The position numbers and the translations under genes were made by a program. From assembly GCA_024692605.1 (NCBI GenBank), contig JAILMQ010000141.1, positions 1 through 49,277 of the forward strand: a DNA stretch of 49,277 bases, read 5' to 3'. This DNA comes from Eubacterium sp. Its GTDB lineage: Bacteria; Bacillota; Clostridia; Lachnospirales; Lachnospiraceae. The notes under the pieces were generated by a model. That model did not search any database, had not been told where the DNA came from, and saw only the letters and a list, made by a program, of their open reading frames with translations. Shown one piece after another: positions 10,489 to 30,616 of the stretch (positions are counted from its first letter, which is position 1; every line of letters begins with the position of its first letter).

Positions 10489-11157
10489 ATGGATATATTA
10501 CTGGCTGAAGATGAGAAGGATTTATCACGTGCTCTGACAGCGGTTCTGCAGCATAATGGTTACACGGTTACTGCAGTATATGATGGCGTGGCTGCTGTGG
10601 AGGCAGCGAAAAAGGATGCCTTTGACTGTATGATTTTTGATATCATGATGCCAAAGATGGATGGAATTACGGCACTTAAAACTATTCGGGAAAGTGGTGA
10701 TATAACACCGGCTCTGTTTCTTACTGCAAAGGCTGAGATGGATGATAAGGTTACGGGACTTGATGCAGGAGCTGATGATTATATTACAAAACCATTTGCT
10801 ATGGTTGAACTACTGGCTCGTGTCAGATCACTGACAAGAAGAAGAGGAGATTATACTCCGAAGAGACTTAAATATGGAAAGGTTACTCTGGATATATCAG
10901 GACAGGAACTTGTTGGTGAGAACTCTGTAAGACTTGCGGGAATGGAAGCAAGCCTAATGGAGTTTTTGATGATGAATCCGGAAAAAACATTTACCACGGA
11001 AGAACTTTTCAACCATGTATGGAAGGATACTGAGTCAACTAAGGATGTGGTCTGGGTTTATATATCTTATCTGAGAAATAAGCTCATATCTATTTCCGGT
11101 GATGTTAAGATCGAAGGAGAAAAGGACGGGGAGTTTAGACTATGTTTAAAGAGCTGA
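10489..11157 (+). CDS. response regulator, OmpR/PhoB family
   Basis: 222 residues. The receiver domain (1-115) has the acidic pair near the N-terminus (AEDEKD), phosphoacceptor Asp51 in FDIMMPKMDG, the switch Thr in FLTAKAE and Lys in DDYITKPF. A winged-helix DNA-binding domain follows (about 125-222: LAGMEASLMEFLMMNPEKTFTTEELF...). Its end overlaps the sensor kinase gene by 16 nt, so the pair is translationally coupled. The target genes are unknown. Confidence 0.94.
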   Translation: MDILLAEDEKDLSRALTAVLQHNGYTVTAVYDGVAAVEAAKKDAFDCMIFDIMMPKMDGITALKTIRESGDITPALFLTAKAEMDDKVTGLDAGADDYITKPFAMVELLARVRSLTRRRGDYTPKRLKYGKVTLDISGQELVGENSVRLAGMEASLMEFLMMNPEKTFTTEELFNHVWKDTESTKDVVWVYISYLRNKLISISGDVKIEGEKDGEFRLCLKS

Positions 11158-15799: not shown

Positions 15800-15815
15800 A
15801 TAGTCAAATGAATTG

Positions 15816-15842
15816 TTAGCACTCAAACGGAGAGAGTGCTAA
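15816..15842. promoter_or_regulatory. CIRCE element (HrcA operator)
   Basis: TTAGCACTC (15816-15824), nine spacer bases, then GAGTGCTAA (15834-15842): an exact match to the CIRCE consensus. It predicts heat-inducible, HrcA-repressed expression of clpB. hrcA, groESL and dnaK are not in the window. Confidence 0.97.
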
Positions 15843-15868
15843 CAACAAAACCGAAAGGGGGTTTGATT

Positions 15869-27386: not shown

Positions 27387-28112
27387 ATGTCAGGACATTC
27401 AAAATTTGCGAATATCAGAGCAAAGAAGGAAAAGAACGATGCAGCTAAGGGAAAGGCCTTTACTGTAATCGGAAGAGAGATTGCAGTTGCAGTTAAGGAG
27501 GGTGGCCCTAATCCGGAAAACAACTCCAAGCTTCGTGATGTTATAGCTAAGGCAAAGGCCAACAACATGCCTAACGATACCATCGAAAGAGGAATCAAGA
27601 AGGCGGCCGGAGATCTTGAAAGCGTTAACTTCTCATACAATACCTATGAGGGCTATGGACCCGGTGGAGTTGCTATAATCGTTAAGTGCCTTACAGATAA
27701 TAACAACAGAACTGCTGCAAATGTAAGAAGCGCATTTACAAAAGGAAATGGAAACATCGGAACAACCGGATGCGTGTCATATATGTTTGATGAGAAAGGT
27801 CAGATCATCATCGATAAGGAAGAAGTGGAAATGGATGCAGATGAGCTTATGATGATTGCTCTTGATGCGGGAGCAGAGGACTTTTCAGAAGAAGAGGATT
27901 CATATGAGATCATTACAGAGCCTTCAGCTTTCTCTGAAGTAAGAGATAATCTTGAGAAGGCAGGTATAAAAATGGCTTCAGCTGAAGTGACTATGATTCC
28001 ACAGAACTATGTTGCTGTAGCTGCAGAAGAAGATCAGAAGAACTTAGACAGAATCCTGGATCTGCTTGATGCAGATGATGATGTGCAGGATGTTTATACA
28101 AACGTGGAATAA
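27387..28112 (+). CDS. yebC: YebC/PmpR/TACO1-family translation or transcription factor
   Basis: 241 residues of the standard three-domain fold: SGHSKFANIRAKKEKNDAAKGKAFTV at the N-terminus, GPGGVAIIVKCLTDNNNRTAANVR in domain 2, and the domain-3 repeat ending DADDDVQDVYTNVE. Family members were described as transcription regulators and, for some, as factors easing ribosome passage through difficult peptides such as polyproline. The start follows GAGGAATT at close range. The gene is followed by an unusual structured intergenic element (28121-28289). Confidence 0.94.
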   Translation: MSGHSKFANIRAKKEKNDAAKGKAFTVIGREIAVAVKEGGPNPENNSKLRDVIAKAKANNMPNDTIERGIKKAAGDLESVNFSYNTYEGYGPGGVAIIVKCLTDNNNRTAANVRSAFTKGNGNIGTTGCVSYMFDEKGQIIIDKEEVEMDADELMMIALDAGAEDFSEEEDSYEIITEPSAFSEVRDNLEKAGIKMASAEVTMIPQNYVAVAAEEDQKNLDRILDLLDADDDVQDVYTNVE

Positions 28113-28120
28113 TACATTAC

Positions 28121-28289
28121 TATTTGCGTAAATATATGATATATGCATTCTGCAAGTTCACTTGCAAGAATGCTATATATCATATATTTCCTGCTAAGCA
28201 GGAATCAAAAATACATGAGGAAATTGTCTGCGAAGCAGACAGTAGAGCACGAAGTGCGTAATTTCCGAATGGATTTTTGATAGCAAATA
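28121..28289. repeat. branched multi-hairpin intergenic element
   Basis: The outer arms TATTTGC (28121-28127) and GCAAATA (28283-28289) enclose three structures. (a) A long hairpin 28130-28189 with perfect 15-bp outer arms AAATATATGATATAT/ATATATCATATATTT, then GCATTC/GAATGC and TGCAAGT/ACTTGCA with two 1-nt bulges and a 2-nt loop. (b) TTCCTGC-TAA-GCAGGAA (28188-28204). (c) An arm closed by ATCAAAAA (28204-28211)/TTTTTGAT (28274-28281) and GGAAATT (28219-28225)/AATTTCC (28260-28266). Arm (c) carries two sub-hairpins with GAA loops: GTCTGC/GCAGAC (28226-28240) and GCAC/GTGC (28247-28257). It occupies nearly all of the yebC to kinase gap. It could be a MITE/REP-like repeat or a structured RNA. 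Confidence 0.75.
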
Positions 28290-28314
28290 TAGCATTATAC
28301 ATAAGGGGGAGCGT

Positions 28315-28968
28315 ATGGATAAATTTGTAATTACAATAGCAAGAGAATATTGCTCAGGTGGTCAGAAGATAGGAACACGTCTGGCAGAGGAACTGGGAGT
28401 AAACTGCTATAACAGTGAGATGTTCAGACTTGTATCTAAGAACGAGAATATGAGAGATGATGTAGTTTCTCATGATGACCGCATAAAGGATACATCACTT
28501 TTTGATGTTGCCAAAGAGATTTATACCGATCCCCTTCCTACAAGGGATGTAAAGGATGTTCTTACCGATAAGATTGAAGATGAGGATGTTGTCCTGATTA
28601 AGAATCTTTACGATTATCAGTCTGAGATTATTGTCGAACTGGCAAAAAGAGAGTCCTGTATTATAGTGGGAAGATGTGCTAATTACATTCTGAAGGATAA
28701 TCCCAATGCTATAAATGTATTTATTCATGCTCCTATCGGTTTCAAATTAAAAAGGGCACAGTCCAGACATTACATGCCTGAAAATGAGCTTAGAAACTAT
28801 CTTGCTAAGGTTGATGAAAGAAAAGCTGATTATTATTTCAAATATACAGGCTGCGACTGGACAGATATTAAGAATTATGACATATCCCTTGACACATCGA
28901 AATACGGTATCAGTGGATGTGTGGAACTTATTAAAAAATTCCTAGAGCTGAAGCAGAAACTGGATTAG
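28315..28968 (+). CDS. cytidylate kinase-like family protein
   Basis: 217-residue P-loop protein of the AAA_26/cytidylate-kinase-like group. It begins FVITIAREYCSGGQKIGTRLAEELG, where the usual GxxGxGK loop is replaced by the family's REYCSGGQKIG form. IIVGRCANYIL and a lid-type segment (RKADYYFKYTG) follow. True CMP kinase (cmk) has a different loop and length, so nucleotide kinase activity is probable but the substrate is unknown; such genes are abundant in Lachnospiraceae. AAGGGGGAG lies just before the ATG, immediately after the branched element. Confidence 0.85.
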   Translation: MDKFVITIAREYCSGGQKIGTRLAEELGVNCYNSEMFRLVSKNENMRDDVVSHDDRIKDTSLFDVAKEIYTDPLPTRDVKDVLTDKIEDEDVVLIKNLYDYQSEIIVELAKRESCIIVGRCANYILKDNPNAINVFIHAPIGFKLKRAQSRHYMPENELRNYLAKVDERKADYYFKYTGCDWTDIKNYDISLDTSKYGISGCVELIKKFLELKQKLD

Positions 28969-30547: not shown

Positions 30548-30616
30548 ATGGGACATGGAGTCGGGCACTTCGTCCCATAAACTAGATGGGACAGAGTGTC
30601 CGGCTCCATGTCCCAT
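30548..30616. repeat. 31-nt-armed inverted repeat after glgA
   Basis: The left arm (30548-30578) and right arm (30586-30616) are reverse complements at 27 of 31 positions around a 7-nt loop; two of the four differences still form G-U pairs in RNA. Each arm also begins and ends with its own ATGGGAC/GTCCCAT palindrome, so it can fold as one long hairpin or two shorter ones. TTATTTT follows, so it may terminate glgA, but it is larger than an ordinary terminator. Confidence 0.75.

Follow-up and report, generated by a model that had tools for sequence, protein, structure and literature searches.

The gap between a yebC/TACO1-family gene and a cytidylate kinase-like gene in Eubacterium sp. (Lachnospiraceae; assembly GCA_024692605.1, contig JAILMQ010000141.1) is filled by a branched, highly paired sequence, raising the question whether it is a mobile element or a structured non-coding RNA, the two alternatives left by the original prediction. 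We addressed this question starting from the window, the whole 49,277-nt stretch of this contig that was analyzed, and extended the analysis to related genomes.

The gap behind yebC folds as a four-way cloverleaf

RNA folding of the + strand yielded a four-way cloverleaf filling the gap between yebC and the kinase gene, with a z-score of −7.81 and none of 200 dinucleotide shuffles folding equally well. The − strand folded as RNA with a z-score of −10.21 relative to dinucleotide shuffles, and the + strand of 28118–28296 folded with DNA parameters gave −10.54, likewise unmatched by shuffles. The resulting features are:

27387..28112, + strand: upstream gene, yebC/TACO1 family (Pfam PF01709, PF20772)
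28112..28117, + strand: ATACAT, candidate target repeat on the left, starting at the final base of the yebC stop codon
28118..28296, + strand: whole element, proposed limits, 179 bp (from the fold, P1, other copies and the empty site in genome G080)
28121..28127, + strand: outer stem P1, 5' strand TATTTGC, 7 bp (fold and covariation)
28131..28188, + strand: arm A, long variable hairpin of 26 bp (predicted fold)
28189..28203, + strand: arm B, short hairpin CCTGC-TAA-GCAGG (predicted fold)
28204..28281, + strand: arm C, compound, with basal stem ATCAAAAA/TTTTTGAT (predicted fold)
28214..28220, + strand: CATGAGG, facing CCGAATG via a tandem G.A step (alignment and fold)
28226..28240, + strand: sub-hairpin H1, GTCTGC-GAA-GCAGAC (predicted fold)
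28247..28257, + strand: sub-hairpin H2, GCAC-GAA-GTGC (predicted fold); some copies carry a long, extended version
28265..28271, + strand: CCGAATG, partner of CATGAGG (alignment and fold)
28283..28289, + strand: outer stem P1, 3' strand GCAAATA, 7 bp (fold and covariation)
28297..28302, + strand: candidate right target repeat ATACAT (from the sequence; single copy in G080)
28315..28968, + strand: downstream gene, cytidylate kinase-like (Pfam PF13189)

This fold agrees with the outer 7-bp stem, long hairpin, short hairpin and compound arm of the original prediction, with edges shifted by 1–2 nt. An inverted-repeat search recovered the 15-bp perfect outer arms of arm A (28130–28144/28175–28189), and the two GAA triloops described for the compound arm are present at 28232–28234 (H1) and 28251–28253 (H2). 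Most bases are indeed paired, the claim that nearly all are being slightly overstated, as the inner junction of arm C (28244–28246, 28258–28262) is predicted to remain unpaired. The element lies in sense orientation to yebC and the kinase gene alike, and the longest ATG/GTG/TTG frame overlapping it comprises 45 aa. The arms are not followed by a T-run, and we therefore do not regard this copy as an intrinsic terminator. No Rfam family matched the window at gathering scores; relaxed matches to the element (for the most part microRNA hairpins aligned to arm A, along with caiA and SprX) lay far below the cut-off and were rejected as chance.

Two further inverted repeats were observed in the window. 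The repeat at 15813–15845 (TTGTTAGCACTC, a 9-nt spacer and GAGTGCTAACAA) resembles a CIRCE operator for HrcA, and a 31-nt inverted repeat with a 7-nt spacer at 30548–30616 (ATGGGACATGGAGTCGGGCACTTCGTCCCAT) is distinct from the cloverleaf.

The window element belongs to a dispersed family

BLASTN, the check proposed with the original prediction, detected related DNA in 17 of 61 genomes, comprising the window's own genome, itself among the 17, and 60 relatives. A covariance model of the conserved core built from 31 sequences, termed R1, gave 193 matches in 30 of these 61 genus genomes, with up to 14 per genome, and none in the other 31; in the own genome R1 gave four matches with E no higher than 0.01, of which the lowest-ranking is weak (E 0.0017). 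In an even sample of the family Lachnospiraceae, R1 matched 36 of 397 genomes and 32 of 334 genera, where ten candidates per genome were scored and copy numbers are thus lower bounds. Furthermore, a degenerate pattern retrieved 27 stretches from named genome contigs, every title reading Lachnospiraceae or Eubacterium; 23 of them came from metagenome assemblies, several titled rumen or abomasum. Phage and plasmid records yielded no match to the element with blastn, nor did viral contigs in an exact-pattern search. The window segment is therefore one copy of a dispersed family of cloverleaf repeats. A limited literature search, mainly of titles and abstract openings, found no published description of this family, which is apparently previously undescribed.

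For comparison of individual copies we combined 80 places, hand-picked mainly for high scores and long contigs from the listed R1 matches (of 193), with the window and 12 earlier loci, the 93 sources giving 105 hits, 104 of them distinct. The majority letters of the core read CCTGCGAAGCAGG ... CATGAGGAAAGTGTCTGCGAAGCAGACAGTAGAGC.CGAAG.GCGGACTTTCCGAATG, flanked by P1 and the variable long arm A, whose tip reads TGACTGCTTGCAG in the majority of other copies. Arm B has the majority sequence CCTGC-GAA-GCAGG, the window copy carrying a TAA loop instead. According to an automatic hairpin picker, the three small hairpins have GNA triloops in 82 of 99, 86 of 103 (H1) and 72 of 102 (H2) cases, closed mostly by C-G; the few GNNA tetraloops fit DNA and RNA alike. 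Since this loop type is shared by the small hairpins family-wide, the internal duplication first suggested for the GAA sub-hairpins of arm C is not supported. Duplication of another kind was found in other copies, where a module of arm B and arm C occurs in tandem, with four units at 129-bp spacing in G030 and further cases in G008 and others. Among the copies fetched, the closest pairs at different loci of one genome share 91.5% identity over 177 nt (G070) and 91.8% over 146 nt (G015), indicating moderately recent copies.

Six loci (L049, L052, L053, L060, L061, L068) carry a long hairpin in place of H2, its tip being similar to AAGCTTGCTT and reminiscent of that of arm A. One gap in G000 (contig C63, about 10500–10800; L004, 900–1200) is, as judged by eye, crowded with different palindromic hairpins including one cloverleaf core.

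Compensatory changes across the family

In the alignment of 31 core copies, standard pairs made up 93.7% of the proposed pairs (shuffles, 84.9%). We counted 66 double-change cells (shuffles, 12.8), distributed over 17 pairs (shuffles, 6.4), and this signal was lost when the 3' partners were slid. Likewise, RNAalifold applied to 20 full-length copies predicted 34 pairs, 19 of them with compensatory changes including P1, where for instance CG alternates with UA (11 and 8 of 20 copies) and GC with AU (10 and 9); many false elements from automatic extraction had been dropped by eye before alignment. Judged from these alignments, the pairs covary strongly, as expected for a structured RNA with conserved pairing, in line with the original prediction, and homologs that keep the pairing are evidently abundant. 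Template-switch repair of imperfect inverted repeats can also yield compensatory change, and the observed changes may stem from this process.

G.U pairs are scarce throughout the family, and weighing G.U against A.C as an indicator of selection on RNA rather than DNA gave a mixed picture across the arms: G.U exceeded A.C in arm A (51 vs 23, p 0.0015), whereas it was not above A.C in arms B and C (21 vs 28).

Site histories at yebC and tRNA-Leu(CAG)

The yebC site was compared as loci in 30 of the 61 genomes, six of which were matched by R1. The whole element is present in G000, G008 and G001, P1 with arms A and B but without arm C in G067, and remnants in G064, G016, G077, G076, G075 and G007; the copy in G067 and the last three of these remnants were assigned by eye. 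The remaining 20 genomes contain no recognizable element at this site. In G080 the gap reads TAATATACATAAG, with ATACAT present once. The occurrence of ATACAT on both sides of the window element and singly in G080 is consistent with a 6-bp target duplication. This pattern did not extend to the family, in which 2 of 36 copies with a clear P1 share at least 6 bp (1.4 expected, not significant); the mean shared flank length of these 36 copies was above that of permuted pairs (p 0.006), with the longest match lying within a tandem array. The original suggestion of a mobile element is thus supported by scattered copies and by presence and absence at the same site, while its target duplication remains suggestive here and is clearer in the related Clostridiales-1 units (see below). 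The copy in the window is most probably an ordinary, ageing member of the family. In G063 (L243) the same yebC gap is occupied by several units of a different repeat, GGTGACAAGGGGACAGGCACCATGTCAC.

A second informative site lies between tRNA-Leu(CAG), which it follows directly, and a gene identified by eye as greA-like. We examined 30 of 50 matching genomes; in 10 of these 30 loci the tRNA end was not found by pattern, so that the model is the only evidence there. Eleven carry the element (R1 E about 1e-12 or lower), with one weak match (E 0.05) left uncounted. In the own genome the contig ends 28 nt behind tRNA-Leu, in the apparent start of the same copy. An alignment of ten copies, omitting one of two near-identical copies (G071), showed a median pairwise identity of 0.64 and compensatory change in 28 of 58 pairs. 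Double-change cells amounted to 61; shuffled alignments gave 21.7 and slid partners no more than 22. Further pair types were not above shuffles in these ten sequences (384 of 500). Such compensatory upkeep at one locus in ten genomes is more than expected for a neutral insertion. In G033, only a remnant resembling the P1 3' strand is found at this site, and because losses occurred here as well as at yebC, the element is dispensable.

Orientation and neighboring genes

Of the 104 distinct copies, 65 are sense to both neighbors and 11 antisense to both; grouping by locus (66 clusters) gave 38 and 8, respectively (p 9e-6). As the neighboring ORFs were taken mechanically from stop to stop, some orientations will be wrong; an earlier pass had given 61 vs 11. 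In the complete genome G005, with the terminus placed opposite dnaA, sense is co-directional with replication at the informative copies, so that gene and replication direction coincide and the sense bias may partly be due to replication direction. The stop of the upstream sense frame is located 68–87 nt ahead of arm B in many copies, which would place the beginning of P1 near it. Neighbor pairs named by eye from their translations include gyrB–gyrA, gap–pgk and mnmE–mnmG, and no shared function was seen among the neighbors. Two copies (L167, 1775–2120, G001; L150, 2050–2393, G062) are situated just behind a glmS ribozyme match on the same strand, scoring 79.5 and 78.4 bits, respectively. The frame that follows in L167 resembles glmS by eye, the element lying between ribozyme and gene.

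These observations bear on the possibility that the repeat is foremost a functional structured RNA, an intercistronic cis-element acting in processing, stability or antitermination that is rarely copied and kept for its effect on the neighbors. Sense orientation next to such gene pairs, the onset of P1 near the upstream stop, the two positions behind glmS ribozyme matches (one ahead of a glmS-like frame), the G.U excess in arm A and the compensatory evolution at tRNA-Leu–greA would all suit such a role. However, the losses at yebC and in G033 at tRNA-Leu–greA, the lack of a common function among the neighbors, the G.U counts of arms B and C and the 31 genus genomes without an R1 match argue against it, and we consider this explanation rather unlikely.

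Relationship to Clostridiales-1 RNA

The nearest known family to the cloverleaf repeats is Clostridiales-1 RNA (RF01699), characterized by Weinberg et al. 2010 (PMC2864571) as a probable RNA that is not cis-regulatory, from Clostridiales and the human gut. We compared it with 56 cloverleaf loci, 8 together with 48 drawn from the 80 hand-picked places. RF01699 matched 19 of them over its full length (35.2–58.8 bits, E up to 5e-4), and two loci from G070, L161 (58.8) and L160 (49.1), passed the gathering cut-off of 48 bits. The other 37 gave no match, and the window copy remained unmatched when E values of up to 10 were admitted. In the reverse direction, R1 detects Clostridiales-1 copies with E down to 5e-4, aligning AAACAUGAGGAAA...UUUCCGAAUG.

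Both families, which occur in the same genomes, share the outer stem, a long arm A with a GCUUGC tip, the CAUGAG/CGAAUG arm with its tandem G.A step (in the window copy CATGAGG/CCGAATG) and the GAG-hairpin-GGA motif. In contrast, the cloverleaf family has an additional arm B and a single compound arm where Clostridiales-1 has two separate arms, and the ends differ (TACTATT... vs TGACAT...). The layout given by Rfam, comprising P1, a long arm, the CAUGAG/CGAAUG arm and a separate GAG-hairpin-GGA arm, was not found, the motifs being nested differently. L160 and L161 themselves adopt the cloverleaf layout with arm B and one compound arm, their arm C lacking the CATGAG/CGAATG step. Together with L158 they form a G070 subfamily that lacks CATGAGG and has a continuously paired arm C (ACATCGATAAAG/CTTTATCGATTGT) with no tandem G.A step; this subfamily yields the highest RF01699 scores. 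Based on the matches in both directions and the differing layouts, we regard the two families as relatives with a blurred border.

Clostridiales-1 itself looks mobile in these genomes, as far as can be judged from its copies and their flanks. Five typical copies (94–125 bits) are present in the own genome, and 46 of the 61 genus genomes contain places above the cut-off, at least one of those listed (G070:C17) being a cloverleaf copy. G008 harbors five copies identical over 168 nt with unrelated flanks, and a near-identical unit occurs in G071; among the cloverleaf copies fetched, none at different loci were as alike. Allowing two mismatches, we counted 32 left ends in G008 and 37 in G071, compared to zero for a reversed-pattern control. 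For nine copies, with a unit of 202–203 bp, the left and right 6-mers match at 45 of 54 positions (35.9 when permuted, p 1e-4), including four exact pairs (p 0.0014). The Clostridiales-1 end gave no match in phage, plasmid and viral records at the sensitivity used. At G071:C2:43881–43953 two left ends face each other 33 nt apart, possibly representing a solitary arm A.

The window element could accordingly be taken as a divergent Clostridiales-1 RNA, a branch of the known Rfam family, which would be compatible with mobility. The full-length matches at 19 loci, two of them above the cut-off, and the common tip, CAUGAG/CGAAUG and GAG-hairpin-GGA motifs speak for this assignment. It is nevertheless improbable in view of the 37 loci and the window copy without a match, the cloverleaf layout of the very two copies above the cut-off, and the coexistence of typical Clostridiales-1 copies in the same genomes.

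Y1 transposases and single-stranded DNA

REP elements are conserved intergenic hairpins associated with RAYT/Y1 transposases, and Y1 elements are not known to leave flanking duplications. The repeats studied here are likewise conserved and intergenic, but fold as a cloverleaf rather than a simple palindrome. Movement as single-stranded DNA in the manner of REP/RAYT or IS200/IS605 elements, with the + strand folding and a Y1 (HUH) transposase acting as mover, could explain the scarcity of G.U pairs and the loops, as GNA triloops closed by C-G belong to a class of extraordinarily stable DNA mini-hairpins (PMC4686876). RAYT-sized Y1 frames are indeed found in some genomes including the window's own (252 aa). 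However, our survey detected Y1 in 15 of 30 genomes with the element and in 21 of 31 without it, leaving 15 and 10 genomes, respectively, without a Y1 match, where some genomes are incomplete. The Y1-less, element-bearing genomes include G068, G027 and G032 at 97–99% completeness, with G068 (99%) combining 12 copies with zero Y1. As Y1 genes thus do not track the element, we rejected REP/RAYT, and with it the suggestion of a REP-like repeat in the strict sense; the matching 6-bp flanks of the related Clostridiales-1 unit also stand against a Y1-type element, which we consider very unlikely.

A plain bidirectional terminator or chance palindrome, for which a long hairpin in an intergenic gap might be taken, is refuted by the homologs and has a negligible probability, the missing T-run, the z-score of −7.8 and a branched fold conserved among 193 genus matches making the element more than a terminator, as originally proposed.

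Discussion

The cloverleaf repeat is probably a non-autonomous mobile element that is transcribed within operons and whose fold is under selection, a reading in which we place moderate confidence. We base mobility on the dispersal of the copies, their turnover at the same site, the gain and loss of modules and a clearly mobile relative, and selection on the fold after insertion on the compensatory changes in place together with the sense bias. Such selection would most simply act in the transcript. In the proposed mechanism, an element of about 180 bp without a long reading frame, whose inverted-repeat ends close a four-armed cloverleaf, would be moved in trans by an enzyme recognizing the ends and/or the folded arms, the moved form being either double-stranded or single-stranded DNA. 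The inserted copy would then be transcribed with the operon, and its fold would form in the mRNA but not serve as an intrinsic terminator; selection for a harmless or useful transcript fold would keep the pairing at old sites such as tRNA-Leu–element–greA. No autonomous partner was found in our survey, which covered Y1 transposases. Mobile element and structured RNA, initially posed as alternatives, would accordingly each hold in part.

Among known systems, the family resembles miniature inverted-repeat transposable elements (MITEs) as this class is outlined in PMC3049150: it has terminal inverted repeats, with 36 of 104 copies passing a strict automatic P1 search, no long ORF, a high degree of pairing and a dispersed distribution. 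It differs in that its branched fold is kept by compensatory change and in that a target duplication was not evident across its copies. The BOX elements of Streptococcus pneumoniae, as described in the same source, are also small, folded, modular and intergenic with a variable number of inner modules, and have been proposed to be mobile and to influence the genes transcribed with them. Variation of inner modules is found here as well, in the tandem arm B and C units and in the loss of arm C in G067. This likeness is one of description; BOX has other modules and another fold, and BOX has a proposed IS partner, whereas none was found for the cloverleaf family.

Going beyond the mobile-element reading of the cloverleaf repeat, we tentatively propose, as a possibility somewhat short of even, that cloverleaf element and Clostridiales-1 form one mobile superfamily with a selected fold, in which Clostridiales-1 would transpose with duplication of about 6 bp, while a number of copies, for instance those at tRNA-Leu(CAG)–greA, might be kept as working RNA parts of operons. 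If true, Clostridiales-1, filed as a small-RNA gene, would be a transposing unit.

Our data extend the small folded interspersed repeats by a further family, with matches in 32 of the 334 genera sampled. The tRNA-Leu–greA series and the yebC decay series make selection on the fold in place, as opposed to on moving copies, directly testable. Furthermore, Clostridiales-1, an Rfam family without a stated function, gains a likely explanation as a mobile element.
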